The notes below the pieces were generated by a model that saw nothing but the letters and a program-made list of their open reading frames with translations, did no database searches and was not told the origin of the DNA. Source: Candidatus Siliceabacter maunaloa (lineage in GTDB: Bacteria; Actinomycetota; Thermoleophilia; Solirubrobacterales; Solirubrobacteraceae). From it: a DNA stretch of 64,000 bases. Both the position numbers and the translations under genes were made by a program. The stretch is taken from contig JANDLV010000005.1 of NCBI GenBank assembly GCA_024330185.1, positions 62,001 to 126,000 of the forward strand, in the 5' to 3' direction. Shown one piece after another: positions 18,644 through 47,692 of this stretch (positions within the stretch are counted from its first letter, which is position 1; each line of letters begins with the position of its first letter).

Positions 18644-18975
18644 CCAGCCTCGCGCCGATCTTCGTCGGCGGGACCGGTCGCAGCGGCACGACGATCTTCG
18701 CAAGCTGCTGCCAGAGCAGCCCGGGTACGTCCTGGTCCAGATCGAGTTGCGCGTCCAGCGAAGTCCTTCGCGACCGATCCCCGCTCGTCGCGGTCGCAAC
18801 CGCGACGCTGGTACAGCCGCGGGATGAGTCGAGAGAACATCCCATAGCGCCGCCGCGGCCAGCACGCTCGCGCGACTGTTCCCGACGGCGCGCTCGAGCA
18901 AGTCAGTCACCCGCCGTGGCCTGGAAGCCGCGACGTCGCTGCGCGACGCGCGGGCTTCGCGCTTGCCCTCACGGC
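18640..18975 (+). pseudogene. Sulfotransferase, copy B (decayed)
   Basis: Starts at GTG 18640 like copy A with LAPIFVGGTGRSGTTIF (phosphosulfate loop). One base is then lost: LLPEQPGYVLVQIELRVQ, the expected continuation, is in another frame. Most of the middle is missing. A final piece (AAASTLARLFPTARS, then TRRGLEAATSLRDARAS) matches the 3'-phosphate-binding region of copy A in yet another frame. The remnant runs into the tail of a minus-strand sulfotransferase. Confidence 0.8.
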
Positions 18976-19568
18976 CCCTGCGCTCGGCTCAACCCCAAGG
19001 AAGGCGAAGATCGCCCGCATGGTGGCCAGCGGATCCTCGGCGAGATCGGCGGTCAGTGCCACATGCAGACGCTCGCGGGGGAAGACCGCGAGGTACGCCC
19101 CGAGGATGCGGGCGTATTCGCCCTGCACGACATAGGACGTGGTCTCAGTCGGCGCCCGTCGTGCTTCATCGAGCGCCTCTGGGACCACGGAGGCGCGTGC
19201 TGCATCGTCGAACGTGCGGTGCTCTTGACCGCGGAGCGTCGCCATTCGATGGTGCGAGAGAGCGCGCTTGACGGGGTCGCGCAGGAGCGCGATCAACCGG
19301 ACGTCGGGCACCGCCGCCCGTATGCGCCGGGCGATCTCGGGGACATCCGCGTCCCCGGTGCCCATCATGTAGTGAGGAGTGACGGTCCCCCACTGCGTGT
19401 TCGACGGAGCGTCGCCGAAGAACTCCTCCAGATACCAGCGCAAGCCGCGGCTGAAGGGCTGGTCGTGACTGAAGAACGCCGCCTCCTTCGAGCGCGGGGT
19501 TGCCAGAGCGATGACGTTCCCGCCTTCTGGGCGCCGATCACGATGAAGCGCAGAGACTTGGAGCCCAC
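18907..19568 (-). pseudogene. Sulfotransferase C, frameshifted, with a foreign C-terminus
   Basis: The start is taken at GTG 19568 (VGSKSLRFIVIGAQKAGTSSLW, the phosphosulfate-binding loop). Near 19505 the frame shifts and some residues are missing; SKEAAFFSHDQPFSRGLRWYLEEFF then continues in the frame ending at 18907. The 3'-phosphate region (VRLIALLRDPVKRALSHHRM) is intact, as is the dimerisation-like EYARILGAYLAVFPRERLHV. After FAFLGVEPS the last ~25 residues read through the antisense of sulfotransferase copy B, so the true C-terminus is lost. It lies 37 bases downstream of a large GT gene and was probably the last gene of that operon. Confidence 0.75.
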
Positions 19569-19605: not shown

Positions 19606-21945
19606 TCATGCTCGGTCCGCCGGTCGGCGAGGTGTCGCAACATCGAGCTCTTGAAGGAACGTCAATAGCTCCGTGGCGCGCCGGTCGGCGGTGTGGCTCT
19701 CGAGGACGAGCTGGCGCCCGCGCCGCGCGACGGACGCCCTGGCGCCGGGGTCGCCGAGATAGCGCTCGATCTTCGCGCGGAGATCCTCTCGCGTGCTGAA
19801 CGTCTCGAGCCCTCCGGCGAAGAGAACCTCGAGCGCGGGGAAGTCGTCGCAGATCACGAACCCCCCGGAGGCGAGGGCGTCGCAGATCCGGTTGGACACG
19901 AAGCCGTGCCGGCGCATGTCGTCCCAGTGGTCTGCGAGCACGATGCCGGCGGACGAGTACAACCTGTGCAATTCCTCGTTGGGCACGTGGTCGCCGCGCG
20001 CGTGCTCGGGAGCGAGATAGCGCCAACCCTGGCCGTAGAGTCCGAGGTCCCGGTTCGTGGGAAGCACAGACCACACGGCCCGCCGAAACACGGAGCGCCA
20101 GTTGCCCACGAACAGTACCTCATGCCCCGGCGACTCGTCCGCCGCCGGTGCGAACACGGCGGGATCGGTGAACTGGAGCAGCTCCCGCACGGGAACGTCT
20201 ACCTGGTTTGCGAGTACGGCGGCGTGTGGTCGGGAGGCGACGGCCACAAGGTCGTAGTCGGCGAGCTCGTCCAGGGCCACCTCGTCGGGGTGGCTGATGT
20301 GCCACATGACCCGCCGCTGCCCGGGGGGGAGGTGCAACCGTCCGCGCCCCCGAACGTTGACCACGACGTCGAGCGCCGCTCCCCGCGGATCGCCCGACTC
20401 GTCGCGGACCTGCAGGCGCGTCCAGCAGCCCTGAGCGCGCAGCGCGCGCGCCAGAGCGCGAGCCAGGAAGACGTCCCCCGACGTGCTCGCCGACGGCCAG
20501 TCGCGTGCAGCGGTCTGCAAGCACACCGTCGGCCGTTCGAGGTGCTCGGCGAGCAGTCGGCGCAACGCTTCGCCGTCTACGGGCGTTTCGTCGCGACACA
20601 GGACCGACCCGGGCTCGCAACGGCGATCGTCGTCGCGCCACCGGGCCCTGAGCGTGCGTCCCTCCGCGTCGATGCGCACGTCCGCCCGATCGGCGGATGC
20701 CTGGGTCCAGCCGGACGCGAAACATGACTCCTGTCCTGCGTCCAGCGGTTCCCCGAAGTGGACGCGCAAGCCCCGGTCACACCACCGGCCTCCTCCCCAA
20801 AGGAGGTCATCGAGCACCTTCTGACGCAGCAGCGGCCCCCATCGCCGGCAGAGGACCTGGATGTCGGACGGTGCAATCGCCTCGCCCCCTCCGTCGACCC
20901 AAACCTCCACCGGCGCCACGGCTACCCCACGGCCGGCATGCCGCGCGGCCAGCGAGAGATCGAGCGCCCAGGCAGCACCACAGTAGCCGGCGCCAAGGAG
21001 CCCCGGGGTCACCGAGCGGGCTCGAACCAGCACGCACGTGCCTCCCACGGCCGGAGGGTCGGATCCCGCACAGGCGACGGGTTGAACTCCGTGCTCCCGC
21101 CAGTCGAACCGCCATCCGCCATCGAGGCGCTCCTGGGTTCCCTTGCGCCAGGACACCGCGCTGACTGCGTCGACAAGCGGGTGCGCGTCGAGATAGTCCA
21201 CCAACCCCGTCTCGAACCCCGGCGGTCCCTCGACACACCCACACAGCACCAGCACGTAGGGCTCGCTGGATCGCTCCACCGCCCGCATGATGAGCTCGCC
21301 GGATGGCCTTCCCGATGCCGCCACCAGGCGACGCACTCGAAGCCGCGCACTTCCCGCTGCACGCAGGAGGCGTCGATGCGTGCGAGCGATCTGCAGCCGA
21401 TCGCCGACGATGACCACGTCGAGAGCGAGGGATCTCCTGTCGACCTCTCCCGCGGGGTGTCCGACGCGCCTTTGCATCATCGCGCCGAGAGCTGCTCGAG
21501 ACGCGGTCGCGAGCCGCGTAACCGCCCGCCGCCGGGCACCACGGGGCCGCCGGTCGGCGGCGCGCAGGACGCGCAGTTGCCACTCGACCCGCCCGAGCTC
21601 GTGGCGAGCCGCAGCCCGCCGACGCAACGCGGCGGCAAGCTCCGGCGCACCGTCGGCACAGACGTCCGGGAGCGAACCGTCGGGCGGTGAAGCCTGCCTA
21701 CGGCCACGGGCGACCCGCCGTCCGGCGGCGTGAACGATCGTGCTCCCCAGGACGATCTTCGCTACGCGGGCTCCCCTGCCGGCGTCCGCGAGCGCGGTCG
21801 CCAGCATCCCGCGTGCCTCGAGTGCGCGCCGTGTGTACTCATCCGCCCAGAAGTCCGCCTGCGCCCGTGCCTCGATGGCCAGACGCGTCGCCTCGTCGGC
21901 GTGCTGAGGGTGGCCGCGGCCGCCGCTGGTCGACGCCGGCCTCAC
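19606..21945 (-). CDS. Large glycosyltransferase: GT2-like plus CgeB-like domains
   Basis: 779 residues from ATG 21945, overlapping the stop of the upstream gene by 4 bases. Residues ~1-150 are helical and Arg/Ala-rich. About 175-420 resemble a GT-A fold (LDVVIVGDRLQIARTHRRLL, PYVLVLCGCVEGPPGFE, VGGTCVLVRA). About 475-770 are a GT-B C-terminal unit of the CgeB/Glyco_trans_1_2 type: VMWHISHPDEVALDELADYD, VLFVGNWRSVFRR, then HGFVSNRICDALASGGFVI (from ~679), the usual nucleotide-sugar site of this group. The product probably extends a surface polysaccharide. The GT2-like part has no clear DxD and may be degenerate. It is co-transcribed with the methyltransferase/coiled-coil gene upstream. Confidence 0.75.
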   Translation of the reverse strand: MRPASTSGGRGHPQHADEATRLAIEARAQADFWADEYTRRALEARGMLATALADAGRGARVAKIVLGSTIVHAAGRRVARGRRQASPPDGSLPDVCADGAPELAAALRRRAAARHELGRVEWQLRVLRAADRRPRGARRRAVTRLATASRAALGAMMQRRVGHPAGEVDRRSLALDVVIVGDRLQIARTHRRLLRAAGSARLRVRRLVAASGRPSGELIMRAVERSSEPYVLVLCGCVEGPPGFETGLVDYLDAHPLVDAVSAVSWRKGTQERLDGGWRFDWREHGVQPVACAGSDPPAVGGTCVLVRARSVTPGLLGAGYCGAAWALDLSLAARHAGRGVAVAPVEVWVDGGGEAIAPSDIQVLCRRWGPLLRQKVLDDLLWGGGRWCDRGLRVHFGEPLDAGQESCFASGWTQASADRADVRIDAEGRTLRARWRDDDRRCEPGSVLCRDETPVDGEALRRLLAEHLERPTVCLQTAARDWPSASTSGDVFLARALARALRAQGCWTRLQVRDESGDPRGAALDVVVNVRGRGRLHLPPGQRRVMWHISHPDEVALDELADYDLVAVASRPHAAVLANQVDVPVRELLQFTDPAVFAPAADESPGHEVLFVGNWRSVFRRAVWSVLPTNRDLGLYGQGWRYLAPEHARGDHVPNEELHRLYSSAGIVLADHWDDMRRHGFVSNRICDALASGGFVICDDFPALEVLFAGGLETFSTREDLRAKIERYLGDPGARASVARRGRQLVLESHTADRRATELLTFLQELDVATPRRPADRA

Positions 21946-23954
21946 CGCCCAGCGGTGTCATGGGTGTCCAGCTCGTGAGGCCCGCCGTTGACCGAGTCGG
22001 CGTCTGGGTCAACCTCCTCCGCGCCTCGACCGGGCCCCGGCCCGAGAGCGGGTCGCTGGGGCGACGAGCCGACCGACAGAGCGGCGTCAACTCGCCCCGA
22101 CGCCTTCAGAAGCGCATCGGTGCCCCGACCTCGACGAAGGGACAGGAGGCGTAGGACTCGCATGACCCGGTGACCCAGCCGCCACGAGCGCGACTCGCGG
22201 GCTCGGTCCACCTCCAGCCGAACGTCCTCCAAGGTCTGCCGCCAGACAGCCGCATCGGCTTCGACCCGGGCCGCGTAGCTGTCCCCGGCGCGCTCGGCGA
22301 CCAGGGCTTGCTGCGTAGCCAGGTGGGCATCGCGCTCGCTGTGCTGCAGTTGCTCTTGAAGCAACTCGACCGACCGCCCCAGGCGCTCGACCTCGCTAGC
22401 GCTCTCGTCCTCGCTGAACCGGCTGCTGCTCTGCGTGGAGGCCAGCTGCCGGCACAACTCCTGAGCGAGATCCTCGCCGTCGGCGACGCGTCGCTCGAGC
22501 TCGTAGGTGTACTCCCAGAGTTGGCGCTCCCGCGCCTGCAGCAGCGCGACCTGCCGGTTCGCAGCCGCTCCATCCTTGCCAGCCGCTTCGCGGTCGCGCC
22601 GAGCACCGGCCAGCTCCTGGCGATGAGACGACGCGGATCGCTCACGAGCCGCGTCGCCCTCGGCCAGCTGACGCTCGAGCGCCGTCCGTGCGTCCTCCGA
22701 CCGCTCCTCCGCCCGCAGCAGCTCGCTGCGGAGCTGACCGGCCCGCGCAGCTAGCTCGTCCGCGCGCCCGGCCACGGAGAGCCGCGTCTCCTCGCTGCGC
22801 CGCAAGTGGTCAAGGCCTGCGTCTCGCGCAGCCGCGGCATCGCGGAGCTCACCATGCGCGCGCACCAGCTCCAACCGGACCGCCTCGAGATCGCTGCGAA
22901 TCCCGTCACGGGAGTCCTCAAGCTCCTGAGCGCGCCGTGTTGCGAGCTCGAGCTGCTCCCCGTTCGCTTGTACCGCCTGCTCAAGCTCCTCAACGCTGCT
23001 CTCCGCCTGGCGGCGAAGCTGGTCGGAGGCCGTCAGATCCTCGCTCTGGCGAGCCAGTTGCTCCGCCGAGCGGCGCTGGAGCGCCTGAGCCGCGTCGAGC
23101 TGTCGGGTATCGACCGGCGAGCTGTGCTCGCTTGCGACCTCCGCCTCCGAGGCGCTTATCTCCGCCAGATGCGATCCGAGATCCTCGACACGTACCAGCT
23201 CGCGTACGCGCTGGCCCTCCACCCACCTGGCATGGTCGCGAAGGAACTCGGCCGACTGCAGCCACTCGAAGCGACCGCGCAGGGCTGGTGCCTCATCCAA
23301 ACGCGCCTCGGAGACGAGGATGGCCAGCCCATGAGTACCGGGCAGAGAGGTGAAGGCGAGGGGCCCGGGTAGCTCCCGGAGGGCATCCTCGATCGCGGTC
23401 AGGACACCGTTGCGCGGGCCTCCGTCATGCTCCGCGTTGCAGAGATGTCGGTTGAGCCCTCTGTCACCTACGGTCGCGCTGCTTTCCGGCAGGAGACCTG
23501 CCTTGGCGTAGGGCTGACGGTCCGCCGGCGGGATATCCTCAGGCTCGTAGTAGAGGTCGCGCCGACCGTATGGCCATCCGATGTCGTGCAAGAGGACAAG
23601 GGGAAAGGGCCGATCGTCCCGCCGGCAGCCCTCGGCGAGCAGCCCCAACTCACGGGACACCGTGTACCAGTTGTGGTCCCCGTCGAGAAGCACCGCGTCC
23701 GGCCGCGCGATGACGTCCAGCACCTCCAGGCTCTTTGCCGTATGCAGCACGAAGGCCGAGCCGTACCGGCGTGCGAACTCGCCCGTGTCGAACTCGGGCG
23801 CCGGCTCGATGACATGGAGCGTGCTCTCGTGACCTTGGGCGAAGTCCAGCAGCTGGACGGTGTTGTGCCCGCTCTGGGCACCGACCTCGACGATGACCTG
23901 CGGCCGAGCAGCCGTCAACAGGGGCTCGACGACGGTCTGCCAGAAGCGGAACAC
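21942..23954 (-). CDS. SAM methyltransferase with long coiled coil
   Basis: 670 residues from ATG 23954. Residues 1-~230 are a Methyltransf_24/CmcI-type domain: VIVEVGAQSGHNTVQLLDFA (motif I), a metal/substrate motif LLDGDHNWYTVSREL near residue 88, and LYYEPEDIPP. From ~250 to ~585 the chain is an uninterrupted charged heptad-like coiled coil. It ends in SRSWRLGHRVMRVLR (~588), a motif often seen at the end of coiled coils attached to glycan enzymes. The tail is disordered. A methyltransferase on a long coiled-coil rod recalls WbdD-like chain terminators and length rulers, though without the kinase. It is divergent from a paralogue at 24.3 kb and coupled to the downstream GT. Confidence 0.8.
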   Translation of the reverse strand: MFRFWQTVVEPLLTAARPQVIVEVGAQSGHNTVQLLDFAQGHESTLHVIEPAPEFDTGEFARRYGSAFVLHTAKSLEVLDVIARPDAVLLDGDHNWYTVSRELGLLAEGCRRDDRPFPLVLLHDIGWPYGRRDLYYEPEDIPPADRQPYAKAGLLPESSATVGDRGLNRHLCNAEHDGGPRNGVLTAIEDALRELPGPLAFTSLPGTHGLAILVSEARLDEAPALRGRFEWLQSAEFLRDHARWVEGQRVRELVRVEDLGSHLAEISASEAEVASEHSSPVDTRQLDAAQALQRRSAEQLARQSEDLTASDQLRRQAESSVEELEQAVQANGEQLELATRRAQELEDSRDGIRSDLEAVRLELVRAHGELRDAAAARDAGLDHLRRSEETRLSVAGRADELAARAGQLRSELLRAEERSEDARTALERQLAEGDAARERSASSHRQELAGARRDREAAGKDGAAANRQVALLQARERQLWEYTYELERRVADGEDLAQELCRQLASTQSSSRFSEDESASEVERLGRSVELLQEQLQHSERDAHLATQQALVAERAGDSYAARVEADAAVWRQTLEDVRLEVDRARESRSWRLGHRVMRVLRLLSLRRGRGTDALLKASGRVDAALSVGSSPQRPALGPGPGRGAEEVDPDADSVNGGPHELDTHDTAGR

Positions 23955-24036
23955 GTCTCAGCGGCCCTTCGCGGGGCCAACCATTGCGGTGGGGAGGTCG
24001 GGATGGGACATTGAGGCCATCAAGCGCAAGAAAGGG

Positions 24037-24042
24037 TAGATT
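24037..24042 (+). promoter_or_regulatory. Candidate -10 box TAGATT upstream of the 64-residue gene
   Basis: TAGATT lies 42 bases before ATG 24085 in the divergent intergenic region. It is followed by the purine-rich ribosome binding site ggggaaagga just upstream of the ATG. Confidence 0.3.
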
Positions 24043-24084
24043 GCCCGCACACGGATTGCACAGCGTAAGACGGGGAAAGGATGC

Positions 24085-24279
24085 ATGGCTGCGAACATTC
24101 GGCTCACTGATGGGCGGCAGGTCATCGTGCGGTTGAGCGGGAAGCGGGTGGTGGACGAGCTCGCCAAGGTCGCGGTCGACGACGCCGGCTTCGCCCGCTT
24201 CAAGTCGACGCTCGACCTTCCGGTCTGGATCGCACCGAACCAGGTCGTGTGCGTCGAAGAGCGTTCAGACCTGGACTGA
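24085..24279 (+). CDS. Small conserved-looking protein of unknown function
   Basis: 64 residues from ATG 24085 with a good ribosome binding site (ggggaaagga) just upstream. The sequence MAANIRLTDGRQVIVRLSGK, then ELAKVAVDDAGFARFKSTL and a final strand VWIAPNQVVCVEERSDLD, looks like a compact alpha/beta or beta-barrel domain with no membrane segment. It is not assigned to a family. It lies between the two divergent methyltransferase/coiled-coil genes and 15 bases ahead of the larger one, so it is probably co-transcribed with it. A regulatory or adaptor role is possible but not shown. Confidence 0.6.
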   Translation: MAANIRLTDGRQVIVRLSGKRVVDELAKVAVDDAGFARFKSTLDLPVWIAPNQVVCVEERSDLD

Positions 24280-24294
24280 GGGCGAGGTCAGACG

Positions 24295-27200
24295 ATGTAT
24301 CGCTTCTGGTCGCCCGTGATCGGACCGCTGCTCGAGACGCTCCAGCCGGAGGTCGTCGTCGAGGTCGGCAGTGGGCGCGGACAGCTGACCGAGCCTCTCC
24401 TGCGCTGGGCCCACGCAGGCGGAGCGACCCTTCACGCCATCGATCCACGCCCTCTCGCGCAGGAGGTGGAGTGGGCGGAGCAATGGCCGAACACCCTGAC
24501 GTTCCACGCGGATCGCAGCCTGAACGCCCTCGCGCGGATCACAGAAGTAGACGTCGCTCTGCTCGGAGGTGACCCGAACTGGTACACGGTGTCCCACGAG
24601 CTGGCGCTCCTCGAGCTGATGGCTCAGAGCGCGGACTGCCCTCTGCCCGTCGTGGTGATCCACGGCGTCGACGGGCCTCACAGACGCCGGGACGGCTACT
24701 ACGAGCCGAGCGCTGTACCAGGCGCCCACCGTTTCCCCTACGAGCCTGCGGACGAGAGCCTGGACGGCGATGATGACCCCGCCAGCGCGATCTACGAGCA
24801 CAGCCTCCGCAACGGCGTGCGGACCGCCCTGGAGGACTTCCTCGCCGACCGCGCCGATCAGTGGGTGCTGCGTGAGGTGCCGGGCGACGACGGCCTCGCC
24901 GTGCTTGCCCCATCTGCGGTGGTGTCTGAGCACGATGCGTTGACCGAACTGCTTGAGCGCCTGCAGTCCGCGTCGTTCCTACGAGGACGCGTCGCAACGG
25001 TGGAGAGCGCCCGCACCGAGGCCGAGAGGGCACGGGCCGTCGCCGAACGCCGCGATGTGCAATCGACGTACGCGCTCAGGGGCCTGGACGAGCAGCAGGC
25101 GGAGCTGGCGGAGTCACTGCACTCGACACACCAGCGCCTTGAGCAAGCTGAAGCGCAGCGCGGCCAGTTGCAGGAGGCCAACGAGAGCCTGCGTGCTGAG
25201 CTTGAGTACGTGCGGTCGACCGCAGAGGCGAGCGAGCGCGGGATCGCCGAGCTACGCGGGACGATCGGGGATCTCCAGAGGCAGCAACACGCGGGAGATG
25301 ACGAGCGAGACCGTCTGCGCGATTCCCTGGCGCGCAGCGAAGCGGCGGAGGGCCGGCTCCGGCAAGCCTTGGCCGAGGCCCAGGACGTGGCTCGAGCGTC
25401 TCGTGAGCACGCGCTGGAGCAGGGAGCCCGGGTTACCGAGCTAGAAGACTTGGGCGGGCGGTTGCCCCTCCTCGAGGATGCGCTGGCCCAAGCCCGAAGC
25501 AGCGTCGAGCAGGAATCGCGCATCGTCTACGAGCTCCGCGAGGCGCTAGTAGGCCAGTCGCGGGAGGCTCACGCTCATTGGCGCGAGCGCTTGGTTGCTG
25601 AGCATTCGGCCTTCTCGAGCGCGCCCCGCGCGCTGCTCACACCGCGCGAGCCGGTCGAGCACCCGCCGCGAGCCGAGACAGTCCGCCCGATTCCACCCGC
25701 CCACGACCCCCCGCCGCCCAGCGGCGCGGTTCCCCCTGCCCCAGGACACGCAGAGTCCGCGCCCGATCTCAAGTACTCGCCGGTCGACGGCTCAGCGCCC
25801 TCGGCCGACGCAACCGCCCGTGCCTGGTTTCGCGCTCAGCACGCCAGCGCGCTGGGGACGGATGTCGACGACACCGAGGCTCTGGCGCGACTCGCCCAGC
25901 CTGCCTGCCGGAACCTCCGTCGCGTCGTCGAGGAGGAGGGGGCGCGGAAGGCGCCCGCCCAGCCGACCGTCGACATCGTGGTCTGTGTCCACGACGCACT
26001 CGAAGACGTGCGTCGCTGCCTGTGGTCGCTGAGCGCCAAGACCGATTACCCGTTCCGGCTGATCGTGGTCAACGACGGGAGCGGTCCGCCGACAACACGA
26101 GACCTCGAGCTACTGGCAGCGGAGAACAGTGAGGTGACGCTGATCCACAACCTCAGCCCGCCTCATGGCTACACGATCGCCGCGAACCTCGGCATGCGTG
26201 CGACCTCCGCTGACTACGTCGTGCTGCTCAACAGCGATACGATCGTCACACCGGGCTGGCTCAAGCGAATCGTCGCGTGCGGTGAGAAGCATCCAGACGC
26301 TGGCGTGCTCGGACCGCTGTCCAATGCGGCGAGCCACCAGTCCGTCCCGGAATTGCGCCAAGAGGGGCGTTGGGCGACGAACGAGTTGCCGGAGTGGATG
26401 ACCGAGGACGCGATGGGCGAGCTTGTCGCCTGTCTGTCGGAGCGCCGGCATCCGTCGCTGCCGTTCATCAACGGCTTCTGCTACGCCATCAAACGGAAGG
26501 TCCTCGATCGTATCGGCGCGTTCGACGAGGAGCACTTCGCCAGCGGCTACTGCGAGGAGAACGACTTCAGCCTCCGAGCTGCCGCGGCCGGCTTCCGGCT
26601 TGCGGTGGTCGACGATGCCTACGTCTTCCACGCCAAGTCACGGTCGTACACGCCCGCGGGGCGCGACGGGCACGCCAAGCGCAATTATCAGATCCTGCTC
26701 GACAAGCACGGCCCCGACAACGTCAACCGGCTCGTGCGCGACGCCGAGGCCAGCGAGGCATTGACGCCTCTCCGCGGATCGCTGCGGTCCGCCATAGGCC
26801 GTCCGGAGGATCTTGCGTCCGCCCTGCATCGAGGCCGCCGCCCGCTCAGTGTCGTCTTCGTCCTGCCGGGTCTGGGCAAGGGGGGCTCGGGCGGATCGCA
26901 CTCGATCGTGCAGGAGGTCCGGGGGCTGCGCCGGCTCGGCGTGCCCGCCCGGATCGCCCTCGTCAAGAAGGACATCGAGCGGGCGCGCAGCACGTATCCC
27001 GACGCCGGCGAGCTCTTCGAGCCCTTCGCCGACGTGGACGAGCTCGAGCGGCGGACCGCGGACGCTGACGTCATCTCGATGACGCACTTCAAGTCGGCCG
27101 CGATGGTGGCCCACATCTGGGCACAGCGCCAGGACTTCCTCCCCGCCTACTACATCCAGGACTACGAGCCTTTCTTCTCAACGAGCGATGGGGCCGACAT

Positions 27201-27945
27201 CGCAGAGGCGGTCGCGTCGTACACCGCGATACCCGAGGCGGTCCTGTTCGCCAAGACACACTGGCTGTGCAACGTCGTCGGCCAGGCGCACGGCCTAGCG
27301 GTTGCGAAGGTCGAGCCGAGCATCGACGAGACGCTGTTCTGGTCTGGCTCCCGTCCTGGTGGAGGGCCGCTTCGCGTCGCCGCCATGACGCGTCCAAGGA
27401 CGCCCCGTCGCCAGGCGCACGGCACCGTCACGGTGCTCGAGCGTGCCGCCGCAAGGCTGGGGGCGGACATCGAGACGGTCACGTTCGGGTGCGAGGCCGC
27501 CGCATTCAACAAGCTCACCTCGTCGAGCGACCTGCGCGCGGGCCATCGCGGGTTGCTCGACCGCCAAGAGGTCGCTGCGCTGCTCGGATCCGTGGATGTC
27601 TTCCTCGATCTCTCCGTCTACCAGGCGTTCGGCAGGACCGCACTCGAAGCGATGGCGTGTGGCGCGACGGCCGTCGTGCCACGGGTGGGCGGAGCGTCCG
27701 AGTTCGCGGTCCACGGCGAGAACTCCTTGGTGGTGGACACCTTCGACGAGGAGCCGGCGGTGCAGGCCCTGTGCGACCTGGCGGCAGACCGCGACCGCCT
27801 CGCCGCCCTCCAGAGCGCCGCGCGACGCGACGCCGGTCGCTACTCCATCACCCGCGCGGCCCTGTCCGAGTACCTGCTGTTCACTCGCGAGCATGCTCGC
27901 CGCTTTGAGCCTCGATCCACCGTTTTGCGTCGAGCTGGCGGCTGA
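24295..27945 (+). CDS. Four-part methyltransferase/coiled-coil/GT2/GT4 protein
   Basis: 1216 residues from ATG 24295. Residues 1-~210 are a paralogue of the methyltransferase at 23.9 kb (MYRFWSPVIGPLLETLQPEV, VVVEVGSGRGQLTEPLL). The DGDHNWYTV motif, however, has become LGGDPNWYTV (~90-98), losing the first Asp and the His. About 213-431 are coiled coil, followed by a Pro-rich linker (~440-500). A GT2 domain (from ~558: VDIVVCVHDALEDV, LLNSDTIV with the DxD-like site near 646, and GYCEENDFSLRAAAAGF) is followed by a GT4/WsaF-like domain (~850-1200: VFVLPGLGKGGSGGSHS, YQAFGRTALEAMACGATAV). It likely polymerises or modifies a repeating glycan on the cytoplasmic face. All parts are in one frame. 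Confidence 0.88.
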   Translation: MYRFWSPVIGPLLETLQPEVVVEVGSGRGQLTEPLLRWAHAGGATLHAIDPRPLAQEVEWAEQWPNTLTFHADRSLNALARITEVDVALLGGDPNWYTVSHELALLELMAQSADCPLPVVVIHGVDGPHRRRDGYYEPSAVPGAHRFPYEPADESLDGDDDPASAIYEHSLRNGVRTALEDFLADRADQWVLREVPGDDGLAVLAPSAVVSEHDALTELLERLQSASFLRGRVATVESARTEAERARAVAERRDVQSTYALRGLDEQQAELAESLHSTHQRLEQAEAQRGQLQEANESLRAELEYVRSTAEASERGIAELRGTIGDLQRQQHAGDDERDRLRDSLARSEAAEGRLRQALAEAQDVARASREHALEQGARVTELEDLGGRLPLLEDALAQARSSVEQESRIVYELREALVGQSREAHAHWRERLVAEHSAFSSAPRALLTPREPVEHPPRAETVRPIPPAHDPPPPSGAVPPAPGHAESAPDLKYSPVDGSAPSADATARAWFRAQHASALGTDVDDTEALARLAQPACRNLRRVVEEEGARKAPAQPTVDIVVCVHDALEDVRRCLWSLSAKTDYPFRLIVVNDGSGPPTTRDLELLAAENSEVTLIHNLSPPHGYTIAANLGMRATSADYVVLLNSDTIVTPGWLKRIVACGEKHPDAGVLGPLSNAASHQSVPELRQEGRWATNELPEWMTEDAMGELVACLSERRHPSLPFINGFCYAIKRKVLDRIGAFDEEHFASGYCEENDFSLRAAAAGFRLAVVDDAYVFHAKSRSYTPAGRDGHAKRNYQILLDKHGPDNVNRLVRDAEASEALTPLRGSLRSAIGRPEDLASALHRGRRPLSVVFVLPGLGKGGSGGSHSIVQEVRGLRRLGVPARIALVKKDIERARSTYPDAGELFEPFADVDELERRTADADVISMTHFKSAAMVAHIWAQRQDFLPAYYIQDYEPFFSTSDGADIAEAVASYTAIPEAVLFAKTHWLCNVVGQAHGLAVAKVEPSIDETLFWSGSRPGGGPLRVAAMTRPRTPRRQAHGTVTVLERAAARLGADIETVTFGCEAAAFNKLTSSSDLRAGHRGLLDRQEVAALLGSVDVFLDLSVYQAFGRTALEAMACGATAVVPRVGGASEFAVHGENSLVVDTFDEEPAVQALCDLAADRDRLAALQSAARRDAGRYSITRAALSEYLLFTREHARRFEPRSTVLRRAGG

Positions 27946-28115
27946 ACTGGGTGGGAGGCCGCGATCGACGGCTCGGCGGGCGGTCGTCGGCGGTGAGCGG
28001 GTCGATCGGTGCGCGGGGGTCGGTGGGCGGCGGTTGCGCCCGTGTTATTGGGCAGAGTGAAGCGCGCGGTTCTGCTGGGGTCTGGGTGTTGTCGGTGAGG
28101 CTGGCGGGGGGGCGC

Positions 28116-29548
28116 TCAGGTCGGCGCGGGGAGCGCGCGGATGCGTGCCAGCGCGGCGGTCCAGTCGTCCGGCCAGGGCCAGCGGGCGGGTAGGTGCAGC
28201 GTCCAGCGTCGCCCGGTGCTGCGTCAGGCGGCCGGGCAGTTCGAGCAGGCGGCGGCGTAGCGTGCGCGCTCTGCGCGGTGGGCGGTCGGGGAGGCCGATC
28301 ACGTCGCACCAGCGGTGCAGGTTGTGGGCCAGGCAGGCGATCACCGTCCAGGCGGCGTTGGCGTTGAACTTGCCGGAGGGGAAGTGGCGCAGGGCCTGGT
28401 CGATGAGGTCGCGGATCACCAGCTCGACGGTGGCGTGCGCGCGGTGCTCGGCCTCGACAACCCCGAGCGGCTCGGTGCGGTTGGTGATGAACGCGAAGTG
28501 CTGCCAGGTCGCGAATAGCTGCTGGTGGTCATCCATGGTGCGCACGCGACGCACCATCAGGCGGTCCTCGCCCAGGGTGCTCTGCGCGATCTGCGCCTCA
28601 CCCGACTCGGGGTAGTCCTCCAGGGTCTGCCACGCGCTGTCGTCGATCTGCTCGATCGCTGCGGCGACGGGCTTGGTGATGCGCACCCCGATCGAGTACC
28701 GACAACCCTTCTCGCGCAGGCGCTTGGTGATCTTCTGGTTCCAAAAGCCCGAGTCGGCGCGCAGCAGAATCTCACCCTGCGCGCCGGCGCGGCGCACCCG
28801 GGCGATCAGCTCGTCCACGAAGCGCTGCGCTCCGCGCTGGGTGTTCGCCGACCCCTTGCGCTGACGGATGTGCAGCACCTCGTCGGTGCCCGCCCGGGTG
28901 GCCAGCAGCGGGTGGTAGCCCAGCTTGTGGGTGTAGCCGTAGGCCGCGCCCTGCTTGTCATAGCCGTGCACCTCCCCCACGAACGAGTCGATGTCGATCA
29001 CCAGCCGCTCCTGGCCCGGGCCCGCGCCGGCCCGCAGCCTTGCGGCGATGGACCTCCAGCTGGGTGGCGTCCAGATCGATCGTCGCCTCCTCACCAGGGT
29101 CGCGGTGAATGGCGCGATCCAGACGGCCGCCGACGCGGGCGACCGCACGCTCGACGCCCTGCAGATGACAGCGCCGAAAGCGCAGCGCCAGTTGGCGGGC
29201 CGTGGCGGCCGCCGGCACCCGCGGCGCGCCGCGCAGCCGGGCGCCAGCGTGGTCGGCGCGCAGGTCTTCGAGATCGTCGAAACAGGCACCGCCGACCAGC
29301 TGGGACTCGGCCAGCGCCACCAGCAACTCGCCGCCCGAGACGCCGCGCTTGCGGACCTTGACCGCCGCCGCGCGGCGCTCACGAGCAAGCTCGCCGTCGA
29401 TCAAGCCCACCAGCCCCAACGTCCGGACCAGCGCGCCGACCACGGCCAGCCCCGCATATGGCGTCAAGCGCTCATCGTCAGCGCGAAAGACGATCCGTCC
29501 GACCCGCCTGACACCGTCAGCGACGCTCACCTTCACGGTGACCTCCAT
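28116..29548 (-). pseudogene. IS1380-family transposase with two frameshifts
   Basis: Start at ATG 29548 (MEVTVKVSVADGVRRVGRI, then TPYAGLAVVGALVRTLGLVGLIDG). One frame runs to about 29060. The DDE core (LVIDIDSFVGEVHGYDKQGA, YHPLLATRAGTDEVL, LLRADSGFWNQKI, FITNRTEPLGVVEAEH, KFNANAAWTVIACLAHNL) is in a second frame. Near 28212-28214 an extra base in a ccc run shifts it again; the natural end (LHLPARWPWPDDW, ALARIRALPAPT, stop at 28116) is in the third frame. The first Asp of the catalytic triad (DIDSF) and the later Asp (RADSG) are present. Without correction no active transposase can be made. Confidence 0.85.
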
Positions 29549-29894: not shown

Positions 29895-30866
29895 CTAGGC
29901 TCTGCGACCGCGAAACGGCCGGCGAACGCCCCGGCGGTACAGGCGCGTGCGCAACGAGAGCCTAGCGGGCGGAGACAGCGGCGGTGGAGAGAGCGCTTCC
30001 GGCGAGAACCTCGCCGGAAGCGGTTCGCCGTACTCGCCGGCACAGCGTTCGCGATAGGTCTCGAGCGACGCCCCGAATGCCATCCGTCCGACGCGCTCGT
30101 CGAAGCGCGCGAGGGCGTACTCATAGAAGCGGATCTCCCAGGCCATCGTCTCGACGATGAGCTCGATGATGGACGGGTCGGTCTCGGCGATGCTCTGGCG
30201 CCACTGATTGCGCGTGTCCTTCGTCCAAGCGGGCACTGCGGGAAGTCCGCAGACGTGTGCTAGCGCGAAGATGCTCTCCTCGAAGCGCTCAGCGATCCCG
30301 TACCAGGCGACGTCGCGCTCGAGTTGCTCGACCGCGAGCTCATAGACTTGGCGCGGGTTGAGCTCCGCCAGCTTGCTCCGCACCCGGCGCGGCTCCCAGC
30401 CTGGCGGGAACCCGATGGCCAACTGCGCCATCTGCGTATTCGTGCGCCCCTTCAGGGAACGGACCCAGGTTTCCAGGTCGGGCATGCCGTCGAGGCTTCC
30501 GTGGCGATTGACGTGGTTGCGCTCGTACCATCCGCGGACCGAGAGCGTCCGGGCGAGCGGGTGGCGGAACTGGGTCACCAGCACCGCGTCGCGCGGCAGG
30601 TCGAGCCCGTAGAGGTTGTGCGCGACGTAGAAGGCGTGTCCGCTGGACTGTTGGAGGATCCCCACGAAATGCTCGAAGTCCTTGGGCAGGCCGTGATAGG
30701 GCGAGAAGAACCGGTTGGCCCGCCCGTCGGCGTAATAGGCGCCGCGGATGACCTTCGACATCGACAGCGAGCCGCTCTTGTTCACTCCGTGGAAGACGAC
30801 CGGATGCTCGCCCGCGACGGGCAGGTCCGGGGCCTTGACCTGCACTGCGAAGAGCTCGTCGGTCAA
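29895..30866 (-). CDS. Sulfotransferase-family protein D
   Basis: 323 residues from TTG 30866, overlapping the stop of the kinase/methyltransferase gene by 4 bases (TTGA). The P-loop-like start VVFHGVNKSGSLSMSKVI fits the phosphosulfate-binding loop, and VLVTQFRHPLARTLSVRGWYER fits the 3'-phosphate-binding strand and helix (Arg-His-Pro). Long amphipathic helices follow. The tail after ~285 is Pro/Arg-rich. It would transfer sulfate from PAPS to a glycan or lipid hydroxyl. Being coupled to an APS-kinase-like gene gives direct context for PAPS use. The frame is intact, unlike the sulfotransferases at 14-19 kb. The 238 bases downstream to the IS hold no gene. Confidence 0.75.
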   Translation of the reverse strand: MTDELFAVQVKAPDLPVAGEHPVVFHGVNKSGSLSMSKVIRGAYYADGRANRFFSPYHGLPKDFEHFVGILQQSSGHAFYVAHNLYGLDLPRDAVLVTQFRHPLARTLSVRGWYERNHVNRHGSLDGMPDLETWVRSLKGRTNTQMAQLAIGFPPGWEPRRVRSKLAELNPRQVYELAVEQLERDVAWYGIAERFEESIFALAHVCGLPAVPAWTKDTRNQWRQSIAETDPSIIELIVETMAWEIRFYEYALARFDERVGRMAFGASLETYRERCAGEYGEPLPARFSPEALSPPPLSPPARLSLRTRLYRRGVRRPFRGRRA

Positions 30867-32041
30867 CGTTCGCGCTCCGCTAGCACGCGCAGCACGGCAG
30901 GGTCGTCGTCACCTAGGCAGGCGACGCCCCGGCTTTCCTCGAGGCGCCGCACCGGCAGCCCTGCGGTCTCGAGCTTGACCCGCAGCGCGTGGGCGACGAC
31001 GAAGCGACGGTAGTGTCCGTGTATCCGTTCGGTTTGGCTCAGAACCTCGCCCTTACGCGCCAGCGGATCGTTGATCGAACGGCACTCGATGTACAGGCGT
31101 CCTCCTGCGGCCAGGAGGTCCGTCGACCGCGCGACCAAGTCGTCCTCTTCCGCGAACGTCATGGCGTGCAGGGAAAAGCGGCTGTACACGACGTCGAAGG
31201 ACGCCTCGGGGGCGTCCAGGGTCGTGATGTCCCCGGCGACGAAGCGCAGCCCGCTGCCGGGATGGGCCTCGATGCAGGTGGAGATGGCCGTTTCGGAAAC
31301 GTCGAGCGCGACGACATCGTGCCCGAGGCCCGCGAGGTACGCAGCGTCGCGTCCGTTGCCGCAGCCCACCTCGAGCAGCCGAGCCGGTGGGTCTAGCTCG
31401 GCGCCGACGAGCCGGGCGAAGGTCGACGGCTCGCGCGGCGCCTGCGCGCGAGCGTAGAAGCCACGCCAGTGCTCACGGCGGCCGTGGTCGGCGTAGCGGG
31501 TGAAGCGATCGCTGAGGGCCAGCTCAACGATGCGCATGGCGGCCTGCTCGGGCGATACGCCGTCGTGGTTGGGGACCACGAGGTCGGGCGACCAGGGCTC
31601 GTCGTATAGGTCCTGCAATGAGCCGAGGTGGCCGTAGATTTGCTTCGTCGCCCGGTCGCGCTGGCGGCGCACGTCCTCGGGGACGTCGAGGTAGACCTCG
31701 ATCGCGGCAGGGATGTGCTCCCGCAGCCACGATCGGACGTCCTCGTACATCGCCACGACGGAGATCACCACCGTGAAGCCCTGAGAGGAAAGGAGGCTGC
31801 ACAGCCGGAAGTAGACCCGCGCGAGGTCGGCGCGCTCCTCGCGCGTGTAACCCCAGCGGGACGCGAAGATCGAGCGCAGATCGTCGCCATCGAGGAAGAT
31901 CACCGCCGAGCCGCGCTCGCGCAGCAGCGCCTCGACCCACCGACCGACGGTCGTCTTGCCCGAGGCCGAAAAGCCGGTGATCCAGATGATTTGAGCCGTT
32001 CGGTTGCTCTTCGCTGGGTCCTCCGTCAACAGGTCGTTCAC
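30863..32041 (-). CDS. APS-kinase-like / SAM methyltransferase fusion
   Basis: 392 residues from GTG 32041, chosen because the P-loop strand begins ~20 residues later; a longer in-frame extension to 32215 lacks family features. Residues ~15-190 are CysC-like: the Walker A GFSASGKTT (23-31), LDGDDLRSIF, TREERADLARVYFRL and the Arg-rich RQRDRATKQIYG. Residues ~225-390 are a class I methyltransferase: LLEVGCGNGRDAAYL, VVALDVSE and FDVVYSRFSLHAM. CysC phosphorylates adenylyl sulfate to PAPS. This branch differs from the CysC part of the cysNC gene in the window (DGDD for DGDN), so another phosphoacceptor is possible. It is coupled to a sulfotransferase, supporting a sulfation role. Confidence 0.82.
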   Translation of the reverse strand: MNDLLTEDPAKSNRTAQIIWITGFSASGKTTVGRWVEALLRERGSAVIFLDGDDLRSIFASRWGYTREERADLARVYFRLCSLLSSQGFTVVISVVAMYEDVRSWLREHIPAAIEVYLDVPEDVRRQRDRATKQIYGHLGSLQDLYDEPWSPDLVVPNHDGVSPEQAAMRIVELALSDRFTRYADHGRREHWRGFYARAQAPREPSTFARLVGAELDPPARLLEVGCGNGRDAAYLAGLGHDVVALDVSETAISTCIEAHPGSGLRFVAGDITTLDAPEASFDVVYSRFSLHAMTFAEEDDLVARSTDLLAAGGRLYIECRSINDPLARKGEVLSQTERIHGHYRRFVVAHALRVKLETAGLPVRRLEESRGVACLGDDDPAVLRVLAERER

Positions 32042-32184
32042 ATGGCCGGTTGTATCAGCTCGCGAGTCTGCTAGTACCCCCAACCGGTACTTGCCTGTGG
32101 ACGCCTCCGTCCCTCTTCTGCGAGCCTGTTGCACGAGCTCCGGGCTTGTATAGGGGTGCCCGTTCGGACCGTCCCCGCAGCACC

Positions 32185-32475
32185 ATGGTTCCTTTCTGGG
32201 AGATCGCCATCGCACCGGTTCTCAAGGCGATCGAGGCGCGTTCGGTTGTCGAGATCGGCGCATTTGCGCGGAGAGATGACCACCATGCTCCTCGAGGGCC
32301 TCGCGAGCGACGCCGAACTGCATCATCGACCCGCTCACGAACGGCAGGCTACCCTGTTGCTCGCCGGCGACGGGGCGGGTCGACCCTCGCCGGGCTGTAT
32401 GGGGCGGCGGTTGCCCCGGTTCGCGTACGCGCCCGCAGGTGGGCTCGTACGGCTCAGCGAAGGCGAGCGCTGCTA
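32185..32475 (+). pseudogene. Remnant of a third methyltransferase of the coiled-coil family
   Basis: ATG 32185 opens MVPFWEIAIAPVLKAIEARSVVEIGA, collinear with the N-termini of the genes at 23.9 and 24.3 kb (MYRFWSPVIGPLLETLQPEV). The frame then slips: LRGEMTTMLLEGLASDAELH is one frame over, and another slip follows at catcatcgaccc, where HIIDP would be expected. No further homology is seen before the stop near 32475. It is a short, frameshifted scrap. Confidence 0.7.
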
Positions 32476-34436: not shown

Positions 34437-35351
34437 ATGCGAATGGGCGTCATCGGCCCCTCACCCGATAGGAGCGATCACTCAGTGGACTCGAACGGAC
34501 CTCTCCCAGCGGCCGCCGACCAAGTGTTCGTTGGCGGCTCGGGACGCAGTGGGACCACGGTCGTCGGTCGACTTCTCGGACGCCACAGCAGGCTTGCGTG
34601 CCTCCCCTACGAGCTCAAGGTGCAGACAGTCCTACCGCGAGTGCTGCGCGGGCGCATGAGCGTCGAGGAGTTTGCGGCCACCTCCCACCGAGTACATCGG
34701 CGGGCGCGGGACCCCGCCACGTATGAGCTTCCTCTCGACCCGGCGCTTGAGGTCCTCGGCGCCACGCTGCATACCGACGGCCCTCGAGCAGGTGGACGTT
34801 TCGTCCGCGCCCTGCTGGATCCGTTCGCCACCGCCGAGCGCAAGCCCGGTTGGGTGGAGATGACCCCCGCGAACCTGACCTGCGCCGGAGATCTCGCGGA
34901 GATCCTTCCTGAAAGCCGGTTCGTGCACGTCCTGCGCGATGGGCGCGACGTCGCCACGTCGGTGTCGGCGGTATGGGGGCAGATGGCGGTGAGCGACGCC
35001 CTCGAGTGGTGGGCCAAGCGCATTCGCGGAATCGACGCGCAGGTGCGCCGACTGCCCGAGCACCGCACCACGACCATACTGCTCGAGGAGTTGGTGCGTG
35101 ATCACCGTGACGAGACCTATGAAGCTCTCCTCGCTTATCTCAACCTCGAGGACGAGTCACAGGTACGCGGCTTCTTCGATGAGACCGTGACCGCTGACCG
35201 CGCCCATCTCGGTCGGTGGCGCGACCTCGAGCCTCGGGATCGTCGCGATCTCTGCCGGCAATATGACCGACTGCTCGCCGAGATGAGCGAGAGCGAGGCT
35301 ACCTGCGCTCCGCTACTCAACTCGTCAAGAAGGCTCGAGCTCGCCCGATGA
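34437..35351 (+). CDS. PAPS-dependent sulfotransferase E
   Basis: 304 residues from ATG 34437; GTG 34485 is an alternative. The phosphosulfate loop is VFVGGSGRSGTTVVGRLL (~30-47) and the 3'-phosphate-binding motif is FVHVLRDGRDVATSV with its Arg and Ser. VEMTPANL and the long WW-containing helix resemble copy A at 14.1 kb. The C-terminal LGRWRDLEPRD helix is typical of Sulfotransfer_3-type proteins. It transfers the sulfuryl group of PAPS to a hydroxyl of a glycan or small molecule in the cytoplasm. It overlaps the next methyltransferase gene by 4 bases (ATGA). The frame is intact, making this the best candidate for an active sulfotransferase in the window. Confidence 0.87.
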   Translation: MRMGVIGPSPDRSDHSVDSNGPLPAAADQVFVGGSGRSGTTVVGRLLGRHSRLACLPYELKVQTVLPRVLRGRMSVEEFAATSHRVHRRARDPATYELPLDPALEVLGATLHTDGPRAGGRFVRALLDPFATAERKPGWVEMTPANLTCAGDLAEILPESRFVHVLRDGRDVATSVSAVWGQMAVSDALEWWAKRIRGIDAQVRRLPEHRTTTILLEELVRDHRDETYEALLAYLNLEDESQVRGFFDETVTADRAHLGRWRDLEPRDRRDLCRQYDRLLAEMSESEATCAPLLNSSRRLELAR

Positions 35352-39971: not shown

Positions 39972-41912
39972 TCAGCGGGCCCAGGCGCGACGCGGGGAGC
40001 GGCCGAGGCGGTCGACGACCGCCTCGAGATCGGCAAGGTCGAGCGGCTCGTGGCCCTCGGCGACCAGCTCTCGCATCCGGGCGTCGCGATTGGCCACCGG
40101 GCCGTGAGCCAGGAGGGCGAGGCCGATCCGGCCATCGAGCGGCCCGGAGGAACCGAGCCCGGTCAGTTGGCGAGCGCCGCGAATAGCCAGCGTCGCGGCC
40201 TCATGCTCGTCGACACCGAGGGCGCCGGCCGTAGCAGCGAGGCTGCGCTTGTCACGAACCAGAAGCTCGAGTGCGTGGCGCCGGCGCGTCGGCAGCTTCT
40301 CGAGGCCTTCGAGCATCTGGAAGGTTCCGCTTCGTTGCGGAAGTGCCGCCCGGCCGATGCGAGCGAGCGGCGCCAGATGCTCGCGGGGCACGACGCCGAG
40401 CACGGCCAGGAGCACCGGGTAGGCGGCCAGGCAGAAGACATCGAGCGCGACTCGGGCGGCCACCCCATCGACCCCGCTGCGCGTGGCGACGAGAGCGCAC
40501 GCCACCGCGATGGCGACGCCGCCGGCAATGCGTCCCCACTCGAAGGGCATGGGCTCCGGTCCGCACTGGATGCGGACGACGAAGAGCGCACTCGTGGTGA
40601 GCATCGCAACGATCATCGCGAGGGCCGCCCCAGCGCCTCCCAGCCGGGGGATGAGCACGAGGCACAGGCCGCAGAAGAGCCCCGCGCCGAGGAGCGCCAA
40701 GGTGGCGAACACCCTCAGCCGGTGCGGGACCCGAGCGACACGCGCCAGGACGACGAAGAGGCCGTAGCACGCGAATCCCGCGCCGATGGCAGCCACGAGG
40801 TCGGCCGCGGACCGGTAGTCCTCCGAGGCGATCCGTATCAGCGCGTCGCTGGCGAGCGTGAAGAAGAGCACGATCCCTACCGCGGCCAGCACGTAGTACA
40901 TCGTCAGCTTGGCGCCCACCGCGGCCCGACCCTTCTGCTGATACGTGCCCTGGAACAACGTCGACCGCTCCAGCGGCGCCCAGGCCATGAGGAACGCCGA
41001 CACGAAGTAGGAGCCGAACGCCGCTATGCGGTTGGCGACCCGGTACTCGCCGGTCTCGGCATCGCTCGCGAGCTGCGCGAGGAAGAAGACGTCCGCGTTG
41101 GTGATGATCCACACCGACATGGCGATCGGTATCCAGGCCGGCCGGCTGCCGAGCCGGATGATCTGACGCATGTCGCCGCGGGAGGCGCGCGGTGCGTAGG
41201 CACGGATGGTGGCCGTGATCGCCAGCAGTGCGGCGACGGCGGTCCCGACCGCGGTGCCGATCAGCACGCTGACGAGCCCTTGACCGGTGACCAACAGGGG
41301 GATGGCGACGCCAAGGACCGCCAAGGGGCGAAGCACGCTGACGAGCCCGAACACGACGGGACGACGCTCCATTCGCGGCACGTTCACGACGAGTCGCCAC
41401 AGCATCCCCATCGCTCCCGAGAGGATCGCCCACCGCACCGGTTCGACGTCGGTGCCGGCTCCTAGAAGAAGACGCGCGATGGTCGCGGCAAACGGCTGAA
41501 GGATAGCGCACATGACCGCCAGCGCGACGACGACCAGCAGCAGCCCACTGGTGAGGGCGCGCCCCCTGTCGACCGCGACCCGGTCGGCGTCGTCGTCGAC
41601 CGCTTCCTCCTCCGAACCACCGAACGTCCAGGCCAGCGTGCCTCGAAGTGCCGGAACGCTGCCCAAGACGCTCAGGAGTGCGGCGAAGGTCAACAGAACG
41701 GCGAGCCGGCCGAACTCGGCCGGCTCCAGGTAGCGGGTGTAGACAGCCACCGCCGCCAGCGCGAAGGGGAAGACGACGCCCATCCCTGCGACGTAGAGCG
41801 CGGTGTCGCGACTCATCCGGCGGCCGAACGCCGTGGTCGCGGAGCCGTTGCCTGCGAGATGGCGCTCCGCCCAGCCGCTCGACCGCCGTCGATCGCCGTC
41901 CATGTCGTCCAT
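39972..41912 (-). CDS. Wzx-type flippase with C-terminal soluble extension
   Basis: 646 residues from 41912, five bases after the GT gene. Residues ~35-510 hold about 12-14 hydrophobic helices (ALYVAGMGVVFPFALAAVAVY, LLLVVVALAVMCAILQPF and so on) of a polysaccharide flippase, with the usual charged loop after the fourth helix. The protein does not stop there: ~140 further soluble residues follow. Within them QMLEGLEKLPTRRRHALELL, RSLAATAGALGVDEHEAATL (about 525-580) has the rhythm of a sigma-70 region 4 helix-turn-helix. The transporter moves undecaprenyl-linked repeat units across the membrane. The extension is unusual for Wzx and may contact other assembly proteins or DNA. The frame is unbroken across the join. 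Confidence 0.85.
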   Translation of the reverse strand: MDDMDGDRRRSSGWAERHLAGNGSATTAFGRRMSRDTALYVAGMGVVFPFALAAVAVYTRYLEPAEFGRLAVLLTFAALLSVLGSVPALRGTLAWTFGGSEEEAVDDDADRVAVDRGRALTSGLLLVVVALAVMCAILQPFAATIARLLLGAGTDVEPVRWAILSGAMGMLWRLVVNVPRMERRPVVFGLVSVLRPLAVLGVAIPLLVTGQGLVSVLIGTAVGTAVAALLAITATIRAYAPRASRGDMRQIIRLGSRPAWIPIAMSVWIITNADVFFLAQLASDAETGEYRVANRIAAFGSYFVSAFLMAWAPLERSTLFQGTYQQKGRAAVGAKLTMYYVLAAVGIVLFFTLASDALIRIASEDYRSAADLVAAIGAGFACYGLFVVLARVARVPHRLRVFATLALLGAGLFCGLCLVLIPRLGGAGAALAMIVAMLTTSALFVVRIQCGPEPMPFEWGRIAGGVAIAVACALVATRSGVDGVAARVALDVFCLAAYPVLLAVLGVVPREHLAPLARIGRAALPQRSGTFQMLEGLEKLPTRRRHALELLVRDKRSLAATAGALGVDEHEAATLAIRGARQLTGLGSSGPLDGRIGLALLAHGPVANRDARMRELVAEGHEPLDLADLEAVVDRLGRSPRRAWAR

Positions 41913-46793: not shown

Positions 46794-47692
46794 GCCGCGC
46801 GCTCCGTCGTCGGCTCCGCGACCGCGGGCGAGCGCAGCCGCTCCATGACCGCGGCAAGCAGCCCCACGGCCAGCGGCAGGCCTAGGATTACCCAGACCGG
46901 CACGTCGAGTCCGGCCTTGCTGAGCACTCCGAGAGCTGAGCCGAGCAGCACGCACCCCAAGCCTACGCGCAGGCCCCCTACGGGGACGTGCGGCATGAGC
47001 GCCGCTCCGACCCAGACACCCGGCACCGAGCCCAGCAGGATGTTGGCCATCAGGCCAAAGTCGACGTTGCCGGCGATGAGATGGGCCAGTCCGGCCGCCC
47101 AGAGAAGGATGGCGGCATGAAAGACGTCGGTGCCCACCACCCGGCCCGGGGTCAGCCGGAAGAAGAGGATGAGCGCGAAGCCGACCAGGGCGCCGCTGCC
47201 CAGCGACGTGAAGCCCAGCACCAGCCCCAGCACCGCGCCGATGAGCACCGCGGCAGCACGCCGGCGCCCGGTCAGATCAGCACTCACGACCTCCCGCGAC
47301 GCCAACTTGCGCAAAAACAACGCACGCCCCAACACCGTGAACGCAACCACCAGCAGCGCGCCAGCGATACACCCCAGCAAGATGCCCTGGAAGCCGTCCC
47401 CATAGGCGTTGTTCAGCCGGTCCACCAGCCAGACCCCAAGCACCGCGCCGGGCACGCTGCCCACGGCCAGCCACGTCGAGAGCCGCAGGTCGACGGTGCG
47501 CTGGCGAAGGTGTCGCCACCCTCCGACCGTCTTCGTTATGGCCCCGTACGCCAGGTCGGTTCCGATGGCGACGATCGGCGGCGTGCCGACGACCAAGAGC
47601 AGCAAGGGAGTCATGAGCGAGCCTCCACCGATGCCCGTGAGCCCAACCAGGATCCCCACGCCCAGCCCGAAGACGACTACGAGCGGGTCCAC
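46790..47692 (-). CDS. TauE/SafE (TSUP) family anion permease
   Basis: 300 residues from 47692, about eight hydrophobic helices. The two halves each begin with the family's Gly-rich motif: GVGILVGLTGIGGGSLMTPLL near the N-terminus and GLVLGFTSLGSGALVGFALIL in the second half. TSUP members transport sulfite, sulfonates, sulfate or related anions, often exporting or importing sulfur compounds. The gene is coupled by ATGA to cysNC, so sulfate or sulfite transport for PAPS synthesis is the likely job. It is the first gene of this two-gene operon and diverges from the GH gene at 47.8 kb. Confidence 0.88.
   Translation of the reverse strand: MDPLVVVFGLGVGILVGLTGIGGGSLMTPLLLLVVGTPPIVAIGTDLAYGAITKTVGGWRHLRQRTVDLRLSTWLAVGSVPGAVLGVWLVDRLNNAYGDGFQGILLGCIAGALLVVAFTVLGRALFLRKLASREVVSADLTGRRRAAAVLIGAVLGLVLGFTSLGSGALVGFALILFFRLTPGRVVGTDVFHAAILLWAAGLAHLIAGNVDFGLMANILLGSVPGVWVGAALMPHVPVGGLRVGLGCVLLGSALGVLSKAGLDVPVWVILGLPLAVGLLAAVMERLRSPAVAEPTTERAA

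Follow-up and report, generated by a model that had tools for sequence, protein, structure and literature searches.

Gene organization of the locus

The DNA examined, referred to here as the window, is a stretch of 64,000 nucleotides from the genome of Candidatus Siliceabacter maunaloa. It contains two divergent genes, P1 and P2, separated by 340 bp as judged from their ORF coordinates. The products are paralogues whose methyltransferase (MT) domains are about 40% identical (E 1.4e-40 in a within-genome search), which agrees with a first-pass annotation of the DNA that had placed two paralogues facing away from each other at these positions. Both frames are fully open and their GC content by codon position has the coding signature of the genome. 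Besides P1 and P2, the only sign of this type of MT found in the genome is a third paralogue reduced to a frameshifted fragment. The genes and remnants in and around the pair are as follows.

19606..21945, minus strand: gene for a protein of 779 aa with a CgeB-type glycosyltransferase C-terminus (Glyco_trans_1_2, 1.1e-22)
21942-23954, minus strand: P1, 670 aa, MT followed by a long coiled coil (CC)
24295-27945, plus strand: P2, 1216 aa, MT-CC-GT2-GT4
28045-29388, minus strand: DDE transposase (DDE_Tnp_1_4, 3.7e-34), directly downstream of P2
32185-32323, plus strand: frameshifted N-terminal remnant of the third MT paralogue (tblastn E 1.7e-10, in two frames)

The gene at 19606-21945 overlaps the P1 stop by 4 bp (21942-21945); P1, like P2, is linked to glycosyltransferases (GTs), in its case through gene order instead of fusion. 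The interval separating the two genes holds an ORF of 64 aa with a coding-like GC pattern, close upstream of P2 (24085-24279, plus strand). The first-pass annotation had not picked up the overlap of P1 with the GT gene, the decayed third paralogue or the loss of conserved residues in the P2 MT described below.

Domain architecture and predicted structures of P1 and P2

23310..23954, minus strand: P1 MT domain (residues 1-215), Methyltransf_24 type, DGDHN (91-95) and HD (123-124) kept
22194..23252, minus strand: P1 CC region (about residues 235-587), heptad z 4.6, low-confidence helix 283-587
22080..22193, minus strand: P1 post-rod tail SRSWRLGHRVMRVLRLLSLRR (residues 588-625), carrying the motif SxxW[RK]xG
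24295..24915, plus strand: P2 MT-like domain (residues 1-207), in which alignments show DGDH changed to GGDP and HD to HG
24970..25617, plus strand: P2 CC region with breaks (residues 226-441), from a heptad z of 4.8 and the model
25618..25962, plus strand: P2 linker (residues 442-556), rich in proline and for the most part disordered, pLDDT <50 over most of 435-554
25969..26694, plus strand: P2 GT2 domain (residues 559-800), Glycos_transf_2, 3e-18
26842..27942, plus strand: P2 GT4 domain (residues 850-1216), Glycos_transf_1, 1.1e-11

P1 matches the Pfam family Methyltransf_24 above the curated cut-off (1.6e-6, 29.3 bits versus 26.3). The N-terminal domain of P2 gave no Pfam match at the threshold used, and was modelled as an MT fold with a pLDDT of about 80-90. 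A helical region directly follows the MT in both proteins, neither of which has a Pfam match to a kinase domain. The P2 GT4 domain has weak similarity to WsaF_C (4e-4, under the Pfam cut-off), and its fold is secure given a Z of 33.9 to BshA (6d9t) in a fold search with the P2 model, the matches of which were mainly to GT domains. In the model of P1, which was folded alone, the MT domain came out poorly (pLDDT about 35-45), and this model was kept out of fold searches. The first-pass annotation was thus correct in assigning an N-terminal MT and a CC to both proteins and in extending one of them into GT2 and GT4 domains.

Heptad content was assessed with a simple home-made score tested against composition-preserving shuffles. 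The regions following the MT domains exceed the shuffles in both P1 and P2 (z 4.6 and 4.8, respectively), the strongest stretches being residues 297-432 and 516-588 of P1 and 258-368 and 392-419 of P2, while the MT domains, which served as the negative control, scored 0%. The P1 model, obtained from single-sequence input with a mean pLDDT of 49, has a nearly continuous helix from 283 to 587. The P2 model, based on 12 sequences with a mean pLDDT of 73.6, consists over the same region of helices 226-256, 266-284, 292-376 and 381-441, interrupted at 257-265, 285-291 and 377-380, and the disordered linker of ~100 residues joins this rod to the GT2 domain. The models agree with the heptad score that rods exist, but the rod of P2 is interrupted and its attachment to the GTs is loose. 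The span from an NGV landmark to the tail tryptophan is 409 in P1. P2 lacks the post-rod Trp tail, and its rod ends about 260 residues past the same landmark. The amphipathic character of the P1 tail was not above that of shuffles (0.29 of shuffles were equally high), and no membrane anchor is claimed for it.

Conserved catalytic-type residues of the MT domains

Eight residues (D91, G92, D93, H94, N95, E102, H123 and D124 in P1 numbering) are invariant in 86 intact relatives, and P1 keeps all of them. P2 has the substitutions D91G, H94P and D124G at these positions and retains the SAM-loop residues E23, G25 and G29. The lost positions presumably resemble the metal and base residues known from COMT and other metal-dependent O-methyltransferases, to which profile matches were weak (E 0.3-0.5). 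From this tentative mapping we infer that the P2 MT is probably inactive. P1 has, by architecture, a terminating-type catalytic domain on a long CC; P2 has the CC with its MT residues lost.

The first-pass annotation had envisaged the ruler, capping enzyme and polymerizing transferases in one chain, namely P2. Given the loss of D91, H94 and D124, such a chain would probably be capless, and its rod ends in the disordered linker, so this part of the proposal is not supported. The cap, if present, would probably be added by P1 rather than P2. Another genome, G059, encodes a homologue of P2 (P0010; 44.4 bits to Methyltransf_24) that shares about 50% identity with it across the aligned chain and has its catalytic-type residues intact. 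Its neighbour, P0009, is a degenerate MT.

Association of coiled-coil members with Wzm/Wzt exporters

Across about 85,000 species genomes from Bacteria and Archaea, a single scan identified 525 relatives of the MT family, and the best 80 of the 525, ranked by similarity to P1, were taken as the family set. Family architectures include a stand-alone MT of about 232 aa, MT-CC, MT-CC-GT2 and MT-CC-GT2-GT4. Wzm/Wzt-type genes were sought in the fetched flanks of 78 loci, the probes being the Wzt and Wzm proteins encoded in the genome of the window itself. They were found near 14 of the 18 loci with a CC of at least 60 residues versus 6 of the 60 with less (Fisher p 8e-8, a nominal value since the loci are related and the flanks unequal in length), and other CC thresholds gave p values of 5e-4 to 5e-8. 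The wzm-wzt genes are immediately upstream of the MT-family gene in three loci (L087, L089 and L110), and in the first of these (Anaerobacillus, Bacillota) they directly precede an MT-CC-GT2-GT4 gene.

Known CC chain terminators are encoded next to a Wzm/Wzt exporter, and the CC-bearing family members beside Wzm/Wzt would, by analogy, fit a terminator role like that of WbdD or WsaE. Of 27 proteins from Wzm/Wzt loci, 13 carry the post-rod motif SxxW[RK]xG, as against 3 of 74 others, and P1 and P0009 are two of those three. This tail motif is the best evidence for a putative origin of P1 in a terminator-like lineage.

The Acidimicrobiales contain family members of about 1090 aa that have no detectable CC (L091, L063/L111 and L064/L086), often with several per contig and no Wzm/Wzt nearby. 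The remnant at 32185-32323 is closest to these proteins.

No match to Wzt_C or ABC2_membrane was found on the 131-kb contig (C66) to which the window belongs, and thus Wzm/Wzt genes are not in the same cluster as P1 and P2. The only Wzt_C genes of the genome, two in number, are on contig C88 of an assembly of 120 contigs. In G059, which is a single contig, the pair is at least about 195 kb from the nearest Wzt_C gene. The neighbours of P1 and P2 in the window include the following.

18907-19443 and 34437-35351: two sulfotransferase genes
30863-32215: APS-kinase/methyltransferase fusion
39972-41912: Wzx-like flippase
44877-46955: CysNC-like sulfate-activating gene
50350-52260: Wzy_C gene
52250-52978: initiating transferase (Bac_transf)

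The window also carries a DegT aminotransferase and other methyltransferases. Based on the CysNC-like, sulfotransferase and APS-kinase genes, the polysaccharide may be sulfated. In Wzx/Wzy-type systems, the length of the polymer is normally determined outside the cytoplasm. The Wzx-like, Wzy_C and Bac_transf neighbours, together with the lack of Wzm/Wzt matches on the contig, count against a ruler role and against the capping module proposed below. The strongest rival explanation is that P1 and P2 work in a Wzx/Wzy pathway as tethered decorating enzymes, with P1 methylating the sugars of the repeat unit and P2 building the unit; the CCs would only oligomerize the enzymes and anchor them at the membrane, and Wzy and a Wzz-type co-polymerase would set length. 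This is a serious possibility, if an uncertain one, as it accounts for the flippase-like, Wzy_C, initiating transferase, sulfotransferase, CysNC-like and additional methyltransferase genes of the window, is compatible with the two Wzz-family matches in the genome (both on contig C2), and is in keeping with the many relatives in the MT family that have neither a CC nor a nearby exporter. It does not, however, explain why long CCs in the family go with Wzm/Wzt rather than with non-ABC contexts, or why the tail motif of P1 is the ABC-associated one. The proposal that the CCs act as chain-length rulers is only partly supported: the company that CC members keep and the P1 tail speak for it, but the contig has no Wzm/Wzt match, and length control at the P1/P2 locus is unproven.

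Recurring pairs of intact and degenerate methyltransferases

Adjacent intact and degenerate MT-CC genes occur in five genomes, namely that of the window, G059 and the genomes containing loci L065 (G101), L185 (G128, found by searching the phylum of G101) and L096 (Thiobaca, G102). The pair is divergent and beside Wzm/Wzt in L096/L191 and L185, divergent with a Wzm-like ORF nearby in L065, and side by side in G059. No pairs beyond these were found in the Gammaproteobacteria, the order of Thiobaca or the class of the window. H94 is replaced by proline in all six degenerate MTs seen, which are the five adjacent partners and an unpaired protein from G059 (L025). Pairs in which both copies are intact also exist (L053, L060 and L091), and degeneracy is thus no rule for neighbours. 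For the degenerate members, the tree favours two or more origins, with a single clade not rejected (AU p 0.144).

It could be argued that the locus is a remodelled or decaying ABC-type terminator locus which lost its exporter, in which the P2 MT drifted to inactivity and which has no length-setting role now. The degenerate P2 MT, the transposase gene at 28045-29388 that immediately follows P2, the frameshifted MT fragment at 32185 and the lack of Wzm/Wzt on the contig would all be expected of such a remnant. We nevertheless regard it as improbable, since the long frames of P1 and P2 are fully open with a normal coding signature, the GT2/GT4 portion of P2 is about half identical to the homologous G059 protein, and the recurrence of intact/degenerate pairs in other genomes means that degeneracy need not signify decay.

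Within three of the pairs, none of them P1/P2, the CC spans, measured between the NGV landmark and the Trp of the tail, are matched within 6 residues (315/309 in L065, 262/257 in L096 and 236/233 in L185), a sample of three pairs only, in which the tree shows L065 to be related to L185 and the tail of the intact L185 member is less clear. Matched spans are the expectation for two strands of one rod. It is conceivable, though rather unlikely, that capping is carried out by a heteromeric rod in which an active methyltransferase subunit is combined with a pseudo-methyltransferase. P2, as a GT-bearing pseudo-MT, would then provide the scaffold and P1 the capping strand, although the rods in the window are unequal in length. 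Literature searches found no pseudo-methyltransferase/coiled-coil glycan systems.

Two of the loci also encode giant proteins of about 1800-2000 aa of the MT-CC-GT4-GT4-GT2 type (L185, 7547-13534; L065, 6001-11418). Each has a second MT-like domain at its C-terminus and is divergent from the degenerate MT-CC gene; the L185 giant is adjoined by Wzm/Wzt, and that of L065 is near the Wzm-like ORF.

Comparison with known chain terminators

WbdD of E. coli O8/O9a and K. pneumoniae O5/O3 has an N-terminal MT and a C-terminal CC that sets length. The O9a protein has a kinase between the two, which P1 and P2 lack; the O8 protein, and likewise the O5 form, is an MT-only CC terminator and in this respect resembles P1 (PMC3482155). 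WbdD cooperates with an ABC exporter encoded next to it, whereas none adjoins P1 or P2. WbdD was not among the matches when PDB sequences were searched with a profile of the MT family, and at the level of sequence comparison the family is not recognizably that of WbdD, as the first-pass annotation had suggested. Its further ideas, an independent solution and the joining of all activities in one chain, have precedents in O8 WbdD and in the proteins described below.

Single-chain proteins that combine cap, rod and polymerase are known from K. pneumoniae, namely WbbB (O12) and ORF6 (O7) (PMC11231755). WbbB of K. pneumoniae O12 and Raoultella terrigena has these activities in a single polypeptide, but its cap is added by a Kdo transferase and not a methyltransferase (PMC11231755). 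ORF6, which was shown to terminate its polymer (PMC11231755), has an MT, a coiled coil and two GT modules in one chain as does P2. It differs in having an extra kinase, a CBM and two GT2 modules, whereas P2 has no kinase or CBM, combines GT2 with GT4, and probably has no active MT. WsaE, which functions in S-layer glycan synthesis in Geobacillus stearothermophilus, resembles P2 in having an N-terminal MT, proposed to be capping, and two GT domains in one protein; its gene adjoins wzm/wzt (PMC2943079). The MT of P2 is degenerate and no exporter is nearby, in contrast to WsaE with its adjacent wzm/wzt, and P2 has a CC, whereas none is described for WsaE in the searched text of that paper (PMC2943079). 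The comparison with WsaE covers architecture and the wzm-wzt context of the relatives L087, L089 and L110. What is new here is that the CC/exporter association also holds for a different MT family, together with the recurring active/inactive pairs.

A possible two-protein module for assembly and capping

Our preferred reading, which we hold tentatively and at a little short of an even chance, is that P1 and P2 act together as a two-protein module that assembles and caps a surface polysaccharide. The GT2 and GT4 domains of P2 would add sugars, and the intact MT of P1 would methylate the growing chain, most likely as a terminating cap at the non-reducing end. The long CC of P1 could keep its active site away from the site of synthesis, such that only sufficiently long chains would be capped. 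The MT-shaped, probably inactive N-terminal domain of P2 would sit on its own CC, and the P2 rod may pair with or dock onto P1. The data show the domains of the two proteins, the lost motifs of P2, the link of CCs to Wzm/Wzt across the family and the recurring intact/degenerate pairs; we infer each of the four elements of this scheme, which are complex formation, the identity of the cap, length control and the exporter used. The scheme is favoured by the intact motifs and the tail of P1, the CC/exporter link, the recurring pairs and the precedents of WbdD, WbbB, ORF6 and WsaE. Two features of the proteins count against it: the rods of P1 and P2 are unequal, unlike those of the three matched pairs, and the flexible linker of P2 would loosen the fixed spacing that a ruler requires.

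For the family as a whole, the findings point to a widespread group of MTs in which CC members mark ABC-exported glycans, extending the principle known from WbdD, WbbB and the O7 protein to Actinomycetota, Bacillota and Myxococcota. The recurring pairing of active and inactive members suggests that heteromeric rods are possible, which would make length control testable strand by strand.
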